Source: Hydrogenivirga caldilitoris (lineage in GTDB: Bacteria > Aquificota > Aquificia > Aquificales > Aquificaceae). Taken from it: a stretch of 64,000 nt of DNA. Position numbers and translations under genes: made by a program. The stretch spans positions 1,364,001 to 1,428,000 of the forward strand of contig NZ_RCCJ01000001.1 in NCBI RefSeq assembly GCF_003664005.1, given 5' to 3'. The notes beneath the pieces are model-generated. The model did not search any database, had not been told where the DNA came from, and saw nothing but the letters and a program-made list of their open reading frames with translations. Of the stretch, positions 15,083 through 20,665 are shown in pieces (position 1 is the stretch's first letter; every line of letters starts with the position of its first letter).

Positions 15083-16180
15083 TCATCTATCTGAATGCTT
15101 CTCAATAGCAACCTCTCCTCCCATACCTACTCTGAGCAAGTTTTTTTGCCCCTTGGTTATCTCAACCTTCACAGGTATACGTTGGGCAACCTTAGTAAAT
15201 TCTCCTGCCGTTATATCCCTAGGTATAACCGCAAACTTTGCGGCTGTAGCTCTGTTTATCTCCTTTACAACCCCTTCAAACTTTATATCTGGGAAGGCAT
15301 CAATTGTAATACTCACTCTGTTCCCCTCCTTAACTCCTTTAAGCTTAGTCTCTTCAAGGAGAACAAGGAGGTAAAGGTCCTTAGGGTCGTAAACTGCGTA
15401 AACGTACTGCCCCTCCCTGACCACATCTCCTTCACTAACGAACCTTTTGACCACGTATCCGTCTATAGGACTCCTGAGAAGCGTTTCACCTATCATGTTT
15501 TCTAGGTCTTCCTTTCTCTTAAGGAGCGCTTCTATCTGTCTACTGAGTGCTTCTATTTTCCTATCAAGTTCTTGAGTCTGTTTTAACTTCGCTTCTAGAA
15601 CCTTTCTCTGAGATAGAGTTGCTACCTTTTTAGCTTCAAGAGCCGCTATCTCTTTATCCAGAGAACGCAGGTTTGTATCCACGTCTTCAAAGGTTCGGGA
15701 GGGAACAACACCTTTAGCGTAAAGTTTTTCAAAACGTTCCCGGTCTCTCTCAAGGAGCTCCTTCTTCACCACAAGGGAATCTATCTGTTTCTGGACTGCT
15801 TTCGCCTCCAGGCTTACAAGTTCCATGCTTCTTCGTAATTCTTCCCTTAAAGCCTTTGCCTTAACCTGCAAAGCTTCCCTTTCCTTACGAACCTGGTCTA
15901 TAGTACTCTCAAGCTCCTGCAATCGTACCACGTAATCTCTGTCATTTATCTTGGCAAGGGGTTCTCCCTTCTTGACCTTATCACCCTCCTCCTTGAAGAG
16001 TTTCTCTATCCTGCCGGAAACCCTCTTGTAGGCTACCTTTGTAAAAGTCTCACTCTCCACGAATACGGCATCAGTTATAGCATGAGTTAACCTGTAATGG
16101 AGCCACTTTATACCCACGAGGATAAAACTCAGGGTAAACAGAAGCAACAGGAGTAAGCCAGCTACCCTTTTACCTCTCAT
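15083..16180 (-). CDS. HlyD/EmrA-type membrane fusion protein
   Basis: Periplasmic adaptor of an efflux or secretion pump. One N-terminal membrane anchor (GLLLLLLFTLSFILVGI), a split lipoyl domain (VSGRIEKLFKEEGDKVKKGEPLAKI and later LRSPIDGYVVKRFVSEGDVV) and a long coiled-coil hairpin between (residues about 95-235), then beta-barrel and membrane-proximal parts. 365 residues. It overlaps the TolC gene by 11 bases. No inner-membrane transporter gene follows, which is unusual for a TetR-TolC-HlyD operon. Confidence 0.9.
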   Translation of the reverse strand: MRGKRVAGLLLLLLFTLSFILVGIKWLHYRLTHAITDAVFVESETFTKVAYKRVSGRIEKLFKEEGDKVKKGEPLAKINDRDYVVRLQELESTIDQVRKEREALQVKAKALREELRRSMELVSLEAKAVQKQIDSLVVKKELLERDRERFEKLYAKGVVPSRTFEDVDTNLRSLDKEIAALEAKKVATLSQRKVLEAKLKQTQELDRKIEALSRQIEALLKRKEDLENMIGETLLRSPIDGYVVKRFVSEGDVVREGQYVYAVYDPKDLYLLVLLEETKLKGVKEGNRVSITIDAFPDIKFEGVVKEINRATAAKFAVIPRDITAGEFTKVAQRIPVKVEITKGQKNLLRVGMGGEVAIEKHSDR

Positions 16181-17444
16181 AACCCACCACCCTTAAGAGT
16201 CTAAAGCGCTGGAGCAAAAGTTCATACTCGTTTATCCTGAGGGTGTTTTCTGCCGTTATAAGGTAGTTCTGGGCGTCCAGAACCTCCGTATTGGTCCCAA
16301 GCCCAGCCTTGAACTTCTCCTGGGCTATCCTAAGGTGCTCTTTGGCATCTTCAAGCTGCTGACGTGCAAGCTCTATCTTTGCTTTAACAGCCTTTATGTC
16401 TTCAAGAACCCCATCAAGTTCAAGTGCCAGCCTTTGCTCAGTGTCCCTGTATCTCTCGTAGGTTTGTCTCTTTGTAAGCTCACTGAGCTCCAATGCTCTG
16501 AATCTCCTAAAACCGCTGAAGAGATTCCATCTGAACGCAAAGCTTATCAAGTATCTGTCCTTCGGGAATATATCGGACTCCTCTGTCCTCTGGTAAACAG
16601 CTTCAAGAACAGCAACAGGATAAAAGGAGCTTCTGGCAAGCTCAACGTAGCTTTCAGACAGTTCAAGGTTACCCTTCATATACTTCAGTATGGGTCTATT
16701 TTCAAGTAGAGCCTCAAAGAGTTCCTGTCTTGAAAGTTCCGTCAGGTCGGGCTTTTCCCGGTCTTCAATCGGTTTTACCTCTTTGACCTCAACCCCCGTC
16801 AGATAAGATAGGTACTGGAGAGACTTCACGTAATCGGCTTCCGCCTTTGCCAGCTTTTCCTTAACCTCGTACAGTCTGACCTTTGTTTCAAGTATGTCCT
16901 TAAAGGCTACCACCCCCTCCTTGTAAAGCTCCTGAACATCCCTGAGGTGAGCCTGGACGAGTTCCTCGTGTTCCTTGTATATCTCAACTACGGCTTTTGC
17001 CTTTAAAGAGTTTATGTAAGCCTCCCTGAGTCTGTAGAGAACTTCATTTTCCCTCTCCGCTACGAGGAGCTCCTGGAGGCTTTCAGCCTTTCTGGCTATT
17101 TCGTATTCTCTGAAATTCTTCAGATTGAAAAGCTCCTGTACCGCCTGAAGATTGAACTTAGTATAGCTCCCCTTCTGGAAGGTTATCTCCTGTGGGGGAG
17201 AGAGGGGAAAGGTAAAGCTCTGTTTCTTAGCCAGGTTAAAGGAAGCTTCAAGGTTCAGGGTGGGCAAGAAACGTCCAAAGCTTTCAAGCCTCTCCTGGGT
17301 TTTCTTTTCACTCTCAAGCCTTTCAATCTTCAACTCAGAGAAGTTTTTAAGTGCCAGGTTCTCCGCTTCCCTAAGGTCTATTGAAAAGGAAACCACTACG
17401 AAGCTCAGGAGTATACACCAAGCTCTTTTAAAACCTCTCTCCAT
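16170..17444 (-). CDS. TolC-family outer-membrane efflux protein
   Basis: Signal-like N-terminus (RAWCILLSFVVVSFSIDLREAE), then the TolC opening LREAENLALKNFSELKIERLE and two structural repeats of long helices. 424 residues, typical for outer-membrane efflux proteins. Start ATG 17444 lies inside the tetR gene (40 bp overlap) with AGAGGT upstream. Forms the outer-membrane exit duct with the HlyD-like protein encoded just downstream. Confidence 0.9.
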   Translation of the reverse strand: MERGFKRAWCILLSFVVVSFSIDLREAENLALKNFSELKIERLESEKKTQERLESFGRFLPTLNLEASFNLAKKQSFTFPLSPPQEITFQKGSYTKFNLQAVQELFNLKNFREYEIARKAESLQELLVAERENEVLYRLREAYINSLKAKAVVEIYKEHEELVQAHLRDVQELYKEGVVAFKDILETKVRLYEVKEKLAKAEADYVKSLQYLSYLTGVEVKEVKPIEDREKPDLTELSRQELFEALLENRPILKYMKGNLELSESYVELARSSFYPVAVLEAVYQRTEESDIFPKDRYLISFAFRWNLFSGFRRFRALELSELTKRQTYERYRDTEQRLALELDGVLEDIKAVKAKIELARQQLEDAKEHLRIAQEKFKAGLGTNTEVLDAQNYLITAENTLRINEYELLLQRFRLLRVVGYER

Positions 17445-17965
17445 GTTTCAAGTACCTCTTCTCCGGTAAGAATCAAAAGCTCTATAAGGTGCCTTGCGGT
17501 ACCCATTAACATATGAGCCTTTATAGCCGGGTTATCAACCTTCAAAAGCCCGAGAACTTCCTTGGTGTTTTGAAAGAAGAGTTCCTTGCTCTCCCTGTAA
17601 AAGTTCTGGAATTTGCTGTCGGTGCATATAGCCTCAAAGAAGAGAATTTTGGCAAGCTCCTTCTCTTGAACCATAAGCTCAAAGGACTGTAGAAAGACGA
17701 GTTTCTTTCCTGCTTCAACGTCTCCCTCCGCTATATACCCTTTCCCCTCCTCAAAGAGTTTCAACATCTGCTCTCTCACCGAAAGCAATAGCTCTAACAG
17801 AAAGTCCTCCTTACTCTTGAAGTACAGATAAAAGGTTCCGTGAGCGAGCCCAGCTTCAGAGGTAATGTCAGATATCCTTGCGCCGTGAAAGCCCTTTTCA
17901 AATATCACCTTCTTCCCGGCTTCAATAAGCATCTCCTTGGTTTCTAACCTTGATGACTGACTCAT
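17405..17965 (-). CDS. TetR/AcrR-family transcriptional regulator
   Basis: 186 residues. Residues about 9-55 form the TetR helix-turn-helix: KVIFEKGFHGARISDITSEAG then AHGTFYLYFKSKEDFLLELL. The C-terminal ligand-binding domain is all helical. First gene of the operon with TolC and HlyD genes, so probably a local repressor. TATATT (minus, 17974-17979) lies 8 bases before ATG 17965 with no ribosome-binding site, suggesting a leaderless transcript. Confidence 0.92.
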   Translation of the reverse strand: MSQSSRLETKEMLIEAGKKVIFEKGFHGARISDITSEAGLAHGTFYLYFKSKEDFLLELLLSVREQMLKLFEEGKGYIAEGDVEAGKKLVFLQSFELMVQEKELAKILFFEAICTDSKFQNFYRESKELFFQNTKEVLGLLKVDNPAIKAHMLMGTARHLIELLILTGEEVLETWREVLKELGVYS

Positions 17966-17990: not shown

Positions 17991-19352
17991 TCAACGGATA
18001 AAGCGTTTTGTGAGAAGGATTAACAGAAGCAGAAGACCTAAAGGACTTAAGGAGGCTGAAGTACACCCACCCGTTCCAACTCCTAAAGGATTGTATTCAA
18101 AGGCTCCCCTGTCAACCACAGGAATCTCATCTGCGTTGCCGTCTACCTCTCTGGGGTTCGTATCTATGTCCTTTGTGCCGAGGTATGCCCCAGCGGGGAG
18201 GTCAGAGGTTCCCGAGTCTATCGCCGGTGAGGTTCCCTGGAGCCTGAAGTCTCCACCCTGCGGGTTCACAAACTTAGGGTCGGTGAACAGGTTTGCGTTG
18301 TAAGAATACATTGAGGCACTTGTGTCCTTCAGATAAACCCCTTCGGAGACAACAGTATCGTCGGAAGTCCCGTCCGCATCCGGGTCAAGGAGGAAAGCCT
18401 GTCCCATGAAGTTGTTGAAAATCCTGAGCCTCCCGGAGTTAGCTAAGACCGTAAGGCTCTTGCCCGCAAAGGCGGTTTCTCCAGTTTTCCAAACTATGTT
18501 GTTGTATAGGTTTATCTCGGCGTTCTGGTCAGAGAGCCGTGCGTAAATACCAACCATGTCGCTCCCGTATATGGTGTTGTTTACAACGTGGGCTTTCCCC
18601 GAAACGTCCATGTACAGGACACCGTAGGGCATATTCACAGAGCTGTTGTTAGCTAACAAGTTCCCCGTAAAGGAGCAGTTGTTGCCAGAAGCATTGAGAT
18701 AGACGGTTGAATCACCGAGGTTGTTTAAAAAGGTGTTCCTCTCTATGAGAGCAAAGTCCAAAGAGGAGTAAGAGAAACAGGGTGTGTATAGGGCAGAACC
18801 CTCTCCGTAAGATGTGTTCCCTTCAAAGCGGTTGCCAGGGATGAACACCTTGCCGACGGTGTTAGTCACAAAGACGGCTCCTCCCTTCCTTGCGGTGTTG
18901 CTTATGAAGGTGGAGTTCCTCAGGAAAAAGGCAACGGTAGCCTCTCCCGATACGTACAGGGCTCCTCCGTCCTCGCTCCCGGCGTTACCGTTTTGGAACA
19001 CAAGCCCCTCTATGGTAACCTGCGTCTCCACAAAGGACACCTTCATTATCCTTAAGTTCCCTCCCCCATCAAGGACTGGCATTTTATCAGGGTCAAGGGG
19101 CTTTATAGTAAGTCTCTCCTTATCGCTCACGTTAACCTCAAGGGTATTTCCTATGAGGTAAGTTCCCGGACTTACGTATATCGTGTCCGACTCTTCGTTA
19201 CCTTCCGCCCTGCTGAGGGCTGTCTGGAAGGAGCAGGGGAAGAACTGGTCGCAGGCGTCTCCTTGATGAACGGGGGATACGTAAAGGTCTTCCCCATATA
19301 TAAGCCTAAACAAGGCGAAAATACAGACTATCAGAAAGGTTAAGCCACTCAT
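17991..19352 (-). CDS. Secreted right-handed beta-helix protein with C-terminal anchor tail
   Basis: 453 residues. N-terminal signal peptide (SGLTFLIVCIFALFRLIYG), then DLYVSPVHQGDACDQFFPCS with paired Cys and many parallel beta-helix turns (NNTIYG, NNIVWK, NNFMGQ) as in polymorphic outer membrane or pectate-lyase-like proteins; RGAFEYNPLG closes the domain. The tail GGCTSASLSPLGLLLLLILL followed by TKRFIR is Cys, hydrophobic stretch, basic end: a C-terminal sorting signal of the GlyGly/MYXO-CTERM kind (inference). ATG 19352 has AAGGAGG upstream and a sigma-54-like promoter. Possibly a surface adhesin; function unknown. Confidence 0.85.
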   Translation of the reverse strand: MSGLTFLIVCIFALFRLIYGEDLYVSPVHQGDACDQFFPCSFQTALSRAEGNEESDTIYVSPGTYLIGNTLEVNVSDKERLTIKPLDPDKMPVLDGGGNLRIMKVSFVETQVTIEGLVFQNGNAGSEDGGALYVSGEATVAFFLRNSTFISNTARKGGAVFVTNTVGKVFIPGNRFEGNTSYGEGSALYTPCFSYSSLDFALIERNTFLNNLGDSTVYLNASGNNCSFTGNLLANNSSVNMPYGVLYMDVSGKAHVVNNTIYGSDMVGIYARLSDQNAEINLYNNIVWKTGETAFAGKSLTVLANSGRLRIFNNFMGQAFLLDPDADGTSDDTVVSEGVYLKDTSASMYSYNANLFTDPKFVNPQGGDFRLQGTSPAIDSGTSDLPAGAYLGTKDIDTNPREVDGNADEIPVVDRGAFEYNPLGVGTGGCTSASLSPLGLLLLLILLTKRFIR

Positions 19353-19376
19353 ATCAATCCTCCTTGCTTATCACAT

Positions 19377-19393
19377 AGCAATTAACATGCCAA
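19377..19393 (-). promoter_or_regulatory. Sigma-54 (-24/-12) promoter of the beta-helix gene
   Basis: On the minus strand TTGGCATG-TTAA-TTGCT. Consensus is TTGGCAC(G/A)-N4-TTGC(A/T): one mismatch, with the required GG-N10-GC spacing exact. The predicted start of transcription is near 19367, leaving a 15-base leader that contains the AAGGAGG ribosome-binding site before ATG 19352. Confidence 0.75.
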
Positions 19394-19466
19394 GCGGACC
19401 AAGTCCGACAGACAACTGTTACACCTTGATTTAAAGAGGTTCTCTGAGAACCTGACTGTAAACAGT

Positions 19467-19552
19467 TGTAAAGAGGTTTTACACAAAAAGCTATCCTTCC
19501 ACCCCAAACCCTTGTCAGACAGTGTTAAAGGGAAGTGTAAACAAGCTTTACA
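19467..19552 (-). promoter_or_regulatory. Paired enhancer-like palindromes upstream of the sigma-54 promoter
   Basis: Two copies of TGTAAA-N5-TTTACA, at 19467-19483 and 19536-19552 (69 bp apart, centres about 108 and 177 bp upstream of the predicted start). Further half-sites TGTAAA lie at 19457-19462 and 19556-19561. The dyad TGT-N11-ACA resembles enhancer sites of NifA/NtrC-type activators in shape. A separate perfect palindrome AGGTTCTCTGAGAACCT sits at 19437-19453 between promoter and enhancers. Confidence 0.65.
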
Positions 19553-19567
19553 CAGTGTAAATAATTT

Positions 19568-20665
19568 TTATACCTCCTCGTCCTTGTAGCGTTCTCTTAT
19601 TTCCATGACCTCATCAATGTTTTCAAAGAAGAGGTCTATCAACTCTGGGTCAAAGGCTTTGCCTTTCAGGCTCCTCATGTGCTCCGTGGCTTCCTCCAAA
19701 CTCCACGGCTCTTTATAGGGTCTCTTGGAGAGCAGGGCGTCAAAAACGTCCGCTATGGAGGTTATCCTCCCCCAGAGGCTTATCTCCTCTCCCTTCTTTC
19801 CGTTAGGATAGCCCGTTCCATCCCACTTTTCATGGTGGTCTAAGGCAACGAGGGCTGCCATCTGAAGAAGCTCGCTTGAGCTGTCCTTGAGAATCTCATA
19901 CCCTATGATGGTATGTCTCTTCATAACCTCCCATTCCCAGTCGTTGAGCTTTCCCTTTTTCAGAAGTATCGCGTCAGGTATCCCCAGCTTTCCTATATCG
20001 TGCATAGGAGCGGCGAGCATAAGGTTTTCACACACCTCCTTCTCAAGACCCAACCTTTCACCCATTAGTCTTGCATAGAGTCCTACCCTGATTATGTGGT
20101 TGTAAGTTTCCGGGTCTTTATACTCTGCCGCATGGGAGAGCCTCATTATCGCCTCCCTGTAAGCCTCCTTTATCTTCGCTTGCAATATTGAGTTCTCTAT
20201 CGCCGAGGAGGCATAACCTCCCAGAAGAGTAAAAAGCTCTACGTCTTCTTCAGAGAATCCGTTTTTAAGTTTGTTCACCGCCTGAAAAACGCCCAGCAGA
20301 TTACCTCTCTTATCAAATAGAGGTATCGCAAGTATGTTCTTGGTTCTATAACCGGTTTTCCTGTCAATCTCTGGATTAAACCTCTTATCCGAATAGGCGT
20401 CGTTCACGACGAGACTCTTCCCATGCTGGGCTACCCAACCGACTATTCCCCTATCCGCCGGGACCCTTATCTCCTTAACTCCATGGGCTACTTTAGTCCA
20501 GAGCTCGTTTTTCTCCCTGTCAAGGAGGAACAGACTGCACCTGTCAACATCTAAGACCTCCCTTGCCAGGTCTGAAAGCAAAACAAGGAGTTTGTCAACA
20601 TCCTGCTCCCTGCTTATCCTCTCCGCAGAGGAGAGAAGGATCTTTATTCTTCCAAGCTCAGACAT
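19568..20665 (-). CDS. GAF-HD-GYP protein, probable cyclic-di-GMP phosphodiesterase
   Basis: Residues about 1-160 form a GAF sensor domain (VDRCSLFLLDREKNELWTKV, then GIVGWVAQHGKSLVVNDAY), and about 175-345 an HD-GYP domain with MHDIGKLGIPD and DHHEKWDGTGYPNG, the metal ligands and GYP motif. No membrane segment: a soluble sensor that probably degrades c-di-GMP. TAGATT (minus, 20672-20677) lies 6 bases before ATG 20665. The gene downstream is the beta-helix gene, separated by the sigma-54 control region. Confidence 0.92.
   Translation of the reverse strand: MSELGRIKILLSSAERISREQDVDKLLVLLSDLAREVLDVDRCSLFLLDREKNELWTKVAHGVKEIRVPADRGIVGWVAQHGKSLVVNDAYSDKRFNPEIDRKTGYRTKNILAIPLFDKRGNLLGVFQAVNKLKNGFSEEDVELFTLLGGYASSAIENSILQAKIKEAYREAIMRLSHAAEYKDPETYNHIIRVGLYARLMGERLGLEKEVCENLMLAAPMHDIGKLGIPDAILLKKGKLNDWEWEVMKRHTIIGYEILKDSSSELLQMAALVALDHHEKWDGTGYPNGKKGEEISLWGRITSIADVFDALLSKRPYKEPWSLEEATEHMRSLKGKAFDPELIDLFFENIDEVMEIRERYKDEEV

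Follow-up and report, generated by a model that had tools for sequence, protein, structure and literature searches.

Sigma-54 has been proposed as a general controller of the bacterial exterior (PMC3162934). The closest described system is found in P. fluorescens PF07, where the gene for BrfA, a Fis-type sigma-54 activator for which direct sensing of c-di-GMP is reported, lies in reverse orientation beside the fap genes, and both BrfA and RpoN are required for fap expression (PMC9207406, PMC13101488). In this strain fapA has a -24/-12 promoter, and Fap is the main matrix component. BerB of Burkholderia cenocepacia also needs c-di-GMP and RpoN, but it lacks an input domain at the N-terminus, it acts on berA, and no amyloid is involved (PMC5552954). 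FleQ, FlrA and VpsR belong to the sigma-54 activator family, control genes for matrix or motility and bind c-di-GMP, but via the AAA+ domain or neighbouring sites and not via PilZ (PMC10333796), and FleQ and VpsR work at matrix promoters without RpoN (PMC9207406, PMC5552954). The Fap amyloid itself was reported only in Proteobacteria (PMC3792158), and fapD-fapF pairs were later found in five further phyla (PMC6173800).

The locus described here resembles the BrfA-RpoN-fap system in the reverse-oriented gene of a Fis-type sigma-54 activator adjoining fap genes and in the -24/-12 promoters, and by analogy its regulon would work as BrfA-fap does. Compared with that system, the new elements would be the host phylum (Aquificota), the PilZ domain and zinc ribbon fused to the activator (the N-terminal domain of BrfA lies outside the comparison), the additional targets (a BcsA-like synthase and surface proteins), and a defined enhancer of three dyads. 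Taken as a whole, a c-di-GMP-responsive sigma-54 matrix regulon driven by a PilZ activator is, in our judgement, quite probable. What was established directly is the sites and where they lie across the regulon, their conservation, the way in which they co-occur with the gene of the activator, and the fold and motifs of its PilZ domain.

The promoter region of the beta-helix gene

Features of the window (the whole 64-kb stretch of DNA analysed) and of related loci are collected in Table 1. The stretch 19353-19567 is almost certainly a sigma-54 promoter, as predicted from its -24/-12 element. The minus-strand sequence TTGGCATGTTAATTGCT carries this element, TGGCATGTTAATTGCT, with exact GG-N10-GC spacing, 24 nt upstream of the ATG (19352). 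The preliminary description of this DNA had proposed such an element just before the start codon, with a good ribosome-binding site and activator dyads, the whole controlling the gene of a secreted protein, and had made the reading depend on the presence of RpoN. All these parts hold: the host genome encodes one copy of RpoN and seven sigma-54 activators with full architecture, and the dyads are linked to -24/-12 sites (see below).

Table 1. Features of the beta-helix promoter region and of the associated loci; positions refer to the window unless preceded by a contig (C1) or locus (L057, L058) handle.
Feature	Position	Strand	Evidence and remarks
HlyD-like gene	15083-16180	-	ORF list; function by eye
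TolC-like gene	16170-17444	-	ORF list; function by eye
TetR-family regulator	17405-17965	-	ORF list; function by eye
Secreted right-handed beta-helix protein, 453 aa (target)	17991-19352	-	Pfam Beta_helix E 3e-8
Ribosome-binding site AAGGAGG	19359-19365	-	read from sequence
Sigma-54 -24/-12 element TGGCATGTTAATTGCT	19377-19392	-	exact match to TGGCAY-N5-TTGCW, 1 of 12 genome-wide
IHF-like site AATCAAGGTGTAA (tentative)	19419-19431	-	differs from WATCAANNNNTTR at one base; lies between enhancer and promoter
Perfect palindrome GGTTCTCAGAGAACC	19438-19452		between proximal dyad and promoter
Proximal activator dyad TGTAAA-N5-TTTACA TGTAAAACCTCTTTACA	19467-19483		exact; centre ~-109 from inferred start
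Distal activator dyad TGTAAAGCTTGTTTACA	19536-19552		exact; centre ~-178 from inferred start
Second distal dyad TATAAAAATTATTTACA	19556-19572		one mismatch; centre ~-198 from inferred start
GAF + HD-GYP protein (upstream gene)	19568-20665	-	Pfam HD_5 E 1e-32, GAF E 9e-20
PilZ-zinc ribbon-AAA+-Fis activator, 474 aa	C1:307514-308935		adjoins BcsA-like synthase and Fap-like operon
RpoN	C1:979127		PF04552 E 3e-48; profile search of genome
BcsA-like synthase	L057:7623-9773		
Fap-like secreted subunits	L057:11714-14433		
SBBP protein	L058:6241-9030		

Relative to a transcription start inferred to lie 12 bp past the GC of the -12 element, the three dyads fall within the range of about 80-200 bp known for sigma-54 upstream sites. 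Both exact dyads had been recognised before; the third, which has one mismatch, lies 20 bp from its distal neighbour and reaches into the upstream gene at its stop codon, had been overlooked. In the window there are nine dyads at no more than two mismatches against 2.7 expected, a number reached in none of 100 shuffles. The additional palindrome GGTTCTCAGAGAACC pointed out earlier is real, but it was not found at the orthologous beta-helix genes and was set aside as a regulon element.

The beta-helix protein has a weak choice-of-anchor Q match, and its C-terminus forms a Gly-Cys, hydrophobic and basic tail, a type shared with the SBBP protein of L058. When these tails were searched for named sorting signals, the only matches were to MYXO-CTERM and JDVT-CTERM, both below threshold. 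The three downstream genes for TetR, TolC-like and HlyD-like proteins are close or overlapping and are possibly co-transcribed with the beta-helix gene. The GAF and HD-GYP protein encoded upstream is likely a c-di-GMP phosphodiesterase.

The promoter is evolutionarily conserved. Both the dyads and the last residues of the upstream reading frame (YKDEEV) are kept in G002, G005 and G016: the ortholog in G016 has two exact upstream dyads and a degenerate third, the partial ortholog in G005 likewise, and a paralog in G002 has three exact dyads. The -24 element is degenerate at these relatives (CGGTAC or TGGTAC), with CGGTAC at the ortholog promoters of G005 and G016.

Four promoters with a common enhancer layout

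The host genome, that of a heat-loving member of the Aquificaceae (1,753,429 bp, one contig), contains TGTAAA-N5-TTTACA at no more than one mismatch in 25 places, five of them exact, compared with three places for the reversed control, and 12 exact TGGCAY-N5-TTGCW sites. Twelve of the 25 dyads lie no more than 260 bp upstream of these sites, where 0.04 would be expected (Poisson P ~1e-25). All five exact dyads sit in four regions, upstream of four of the 12 sites, and each region has three dyads, of which one is proximal and two form a distal pair whose centres are separated by 20 bp. The layout of the beta-helix promoter recurs at the three other promoters. N5 dyads at one mismatch or fewer are absent from the other eight -24/-12 sites, among them the site before a glnB-like gene; one of the eight has a single two-mismatch N5 site. 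No -24/-12 site lies within 300 bp of any of the 13 lone one-mismatch dyads. A genome scan of this kind had been called for in the preliminary description, which would have given way to a random scatter of dyads unlinked to -24/-12 promoters; the linkage found is of the opposite kind. A half-site pattern, TTWACA...TGGCA, proved too loose, as it also catches nitrogen promoters, and dyad patterns were used instead.

The beta-helix promoter is thus most likely not a one-off and would belong to a matrix regulon of four members, controlling (a) the 453-aa secreted beta-helix protein, (b) a 716-aa BcsA-like GT2 synthase with PilZ domains, (c) an operon for a Fap-like amyloid, and (d) a surface protein of 929 aa with DUF7948, SBBP and choice-of-anchor U matches. 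A matrix regulon is suggested because all four targets are exported or build extracellular material, and the promoters appear to give joint expression of amyloid fibres, surface proteins and a synthase for polysaccharide.

With relatives included, 37 matrix promoters were picked by their N5 dyads. A spacing of 18-20 bp separates the two distal dyads in nearly all of them, and the proximal dyad follows 54-78 bp downstream of this pair, mostly at 54-58 or 66-74 bp, with few exceptions. Between enhancer and promoter, the IHF-like WATCAANNNNTTR has seven exact copies in the 37 promoters against 0.2 expected, and it occurs at no more than one mismatch in 19 of them against 3.6 expected, these counts coming mostly from related genomes. 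The corresponding site in the window may serve for DNA bending, perhaps by IHF or HU.

The Fap-like operon encodes a small secreted protein, a 646-aa Asn-rich repeat protein, two more small secreted proteins, a C39 peptidase homologous to FapD and a FapF-type barrel. It is similar to known Fap systems in combining such a barrel, a C39 peptidase and small secreted subunits in one operon, together with a repeat-rich Asn/Gln protein that may be a counterpart of the repeat-bearing FapB/FapC subunits. Both the barrel (NF058560 E 8e-47; PDB 5O67 E 5e-34) and the peptidase (NF058616 E 2e-34) score below the NCBIfam equivalog cut-offs. The 646-aa protein contains 106 Asn residues and four or more imperfect repeats, each about 100 aa long, and gave no family match; no major Fap subunit was recognisable by sequence in the operon. 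The secreted subunits, as well as the small fap genes at L125, L132 and L134, carry directly behind the signal peptide a motif resembling a double-glycine leader, for example ELDEVHAQG, ELEDVSAQG or ELEEVYGG, at which the C39 peptidase may cut. The BcsA-like synthase has two PilZ domains, and the last of them keeps RxxxR and DxSxxG by eye; therefore, c-di-GMP may act on the synthase as well as on its gene. In family f3 (L178 and L181; G067 and G080) similar dyad promoters precede a gene for a WecA/MraY-like membrane glycosyltransferase (function by eye), which may widen the matrix regulon in that family.

The candidate PilZ activator, its probable signal and its distribution

The candidate activator consists of a PilZ domain (residues 2-73; PF07238 E 4e-7, above cut-off), a zinc ribbon (~104-126), a sigma-54 AAA+ domain (PF00158 E 1e-72) with GAFTGA in its sequence, and a C-terminal Fis HTH (PF02954 E 4e-10), the AAA+ domain with GAFTGA and the HTH together identifying it as a sigma-54 enhancer-binding protein. 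For the AAA+/HTH part the best NCBIfam match is PrsR (TIGR02915, E 2e-122), a family tied to exopolysaccharide and sorted surface proteins in PEP-CTERM/exopolysaccharide systems; however, TIGR02915 is a response regulator family, whereas PilZ occupies the input position here, and the score of 409 bits is under the cut-off of 502.6. It is highly probable that this protein, by binding the dyads, activates the beta-helix promoter.

The PilZ domain contains both motifs associated with c-di-GMP binding, RxxxR and (D/N)xSxxG (PMC10333796), as R2-LAP-R6 and D28-I-S30-LFG33. R2, R6 and S30 are invariant in 19 aligned orthologs. Because a sequence search of the PDB with this part found no PilZ structure, folds were compared: the AlphaFold (AF2) model has a pLDDT of 90.5, and its best Foldseek PDB matches are the PilZ domain of BcsA and c-di-GMP-bound PilZ. 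The likely signal of the activator is c-di-GMP. A reading that questions this role could point to the four ribbon cysteines (C105, C108, C120 and C123), which are just as invariant as the PilZ residues, and to PilZ domains that do not bind c-di-GMP (PMC10333796). We consider it unlikely, given that RxxxR and (D/N)xSxxG/A are kept in all 22 complete orthologs, in the form (D/N)xSL(F/L)(G/A) for the latter, that GGDEF gives 25 matches in the host genome, which also encodes an HD-GYP protein, and that the regulon targets are outputs of the c-di-GMP type. The response to the signal may vary among orthologs, as genus g3 has Ala in place of the final Gly of this motif and GAFTGA reads GAFTDA in genus g13.

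Of 81 genomes, 23 encode an ortholog of the activator, and these belong to two families; none was found in G019 (another genus, 1,551,335-bp chromosome). In many genomes of both families the gene adjoins GT2 or fap genes and, wherever both were read, points the opposite way; it lies away from fap in four activator-positive g3 genomes and several of family f3. The strict pattern of dyad plus -24/-12 element is present in 18 of the 23 activator-positive genomes and in none of the 58 activator-negative ones, with no match of the reversed control in the 81 genomes. The association (Fisher 7e-14) ignores relatedness, and its value overstates independence because the co-occurrence was counted over related genomes. 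One of the 18 genomes, G009, has a single match that on inspection looks like chance, and among the five activator-positive genomes that miss the strict pattern (G002, G011, G066, G006 and G078) the first three have variant dyads by inspection. FapF was found in 20 genomes, all within the 23, a 44-residue match in G072 being discounted. Since G074 and G080 keep the activator and dyad promoters without FapF, the presence of dyads tracks the activator and not fap.

The preliminary description had assigned the layout to the NtrC/NifA class. The sigma-54 promoter and the activator dyads stand, as does control of a surface or secreted protein rather than of nitrogen metabolism; NtrC or NifA as the cognate activator most likely does not. 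Sites for a GAF- or receiver-domain activator of that kind, with the PilZ co-occurrence incidental, could explain the NifA-like TGT...ACA half-sites, and two GAF-domain and four receiver-domain activators are encoded in the host genome. NifA-type sites are TGT-N10-ACA. This form equals TGTAAA-N4-TTTACA, the pattern found at 16 glnB/amtB promoters (16 sites at no more than one mismatch, none with N5), including genomes without the PilZ activator; the matrix dyad is TGT-N11-ACA and so lacks the NifA spacing. The spacer count of the matrix promoters (103 sites) is not independent, because these were picked on N5 dyads, but that of the nitrogen promoters is, because the glnB/amtB set was chosen by gene. 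Moreover, the N4 pattern is untied to the PilZ activator, as 9 of the 23 genomes that encode this activator have it and so do 13 of the 58 that do not, whereas N5 promoters occur only in genomes with this activator, the one of the seven sigma-54 activators covered by the phylogenetic profile over 81 genomes. An NtrC- or NifA-like activator at the dyads is thus quite improbable on both spacer and distribution. The glnB/amtB -24/-12 promoters with N4 sites, often two of them 20 bp apart (C1:423152 of G000 (L049), L083, L136-L141 and L152), would form a separate nitrogen regulon in Aquificota.

Less probable still is that the dyads are operators of a repressor, such as the TetR-family protein encoded just downstream of the beta-helix gene, over an independent sigma-54 promoter. 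The size of the palindromes would suit TetR-type dimers, but the sites lie at -75 to -203, in the enhancer range, three of them in a fixed layout at unrelated genes, and the other three host promoters have no adjoining TetR gene among the listed ORFs. Chance resemblance in A+T-rich intergenic DNA, where TTTACA-like words are common and to which the 13 lone dyads might be ascribed, is refuted by the genome counts, the conservation over two families and the empty reversed control.

Proposed mechanism and its meaning

DNA binding by the PilZ activator, its response to c-di-GMP, activation and the matrix function of the regulon are predicted from sequence comparison. The activator would bind the three 17-bp TGTAAA-N5-TTTACA dyads; on uptake of c-di-GMP by its PilZ domain, it would contact the RpoN holoenzyme at the -24/-12 element through DNA looping, perhaps aided by an IHF or HU bend between dyads and promoter, and this contact would lead to promoter opening. 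The Fap-like amyloid operon, the BcsA-like synthase, the SBBP/choice-of-anchor protein and the beta-helix protein would then be switched on jointly. We lean towards regarding the PilZ-zinc ribbon-AAA+-Fis protein as a further class of c-di-GMP-gated sigma-54 activator, which commands a matrix regulon of Aquificota from a triple-dyad enhancer and is set apart from the nitrogen regulon by one base pair of spacer. A search of the freely available literature turned up no description of a PilZ-AAA+-Fis fusion, which does not prove its absence.

If this reading is correct, a deep-branching thermophilic lineage would have a defined biofilm-matrix regulon that can be tested, and c-di-GMP-driven sigma-54 control of Fap-like amyloids would extend beyond Proteobacteria. 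The contrast between N4 and N5 spacers would be a natural experiment in how related activators of the Fis type stay off one another's promoters, and a heat-stable protein combining PilZ and AAA+ domains could show how c-di-GMP turns a sigma-54 activator on.
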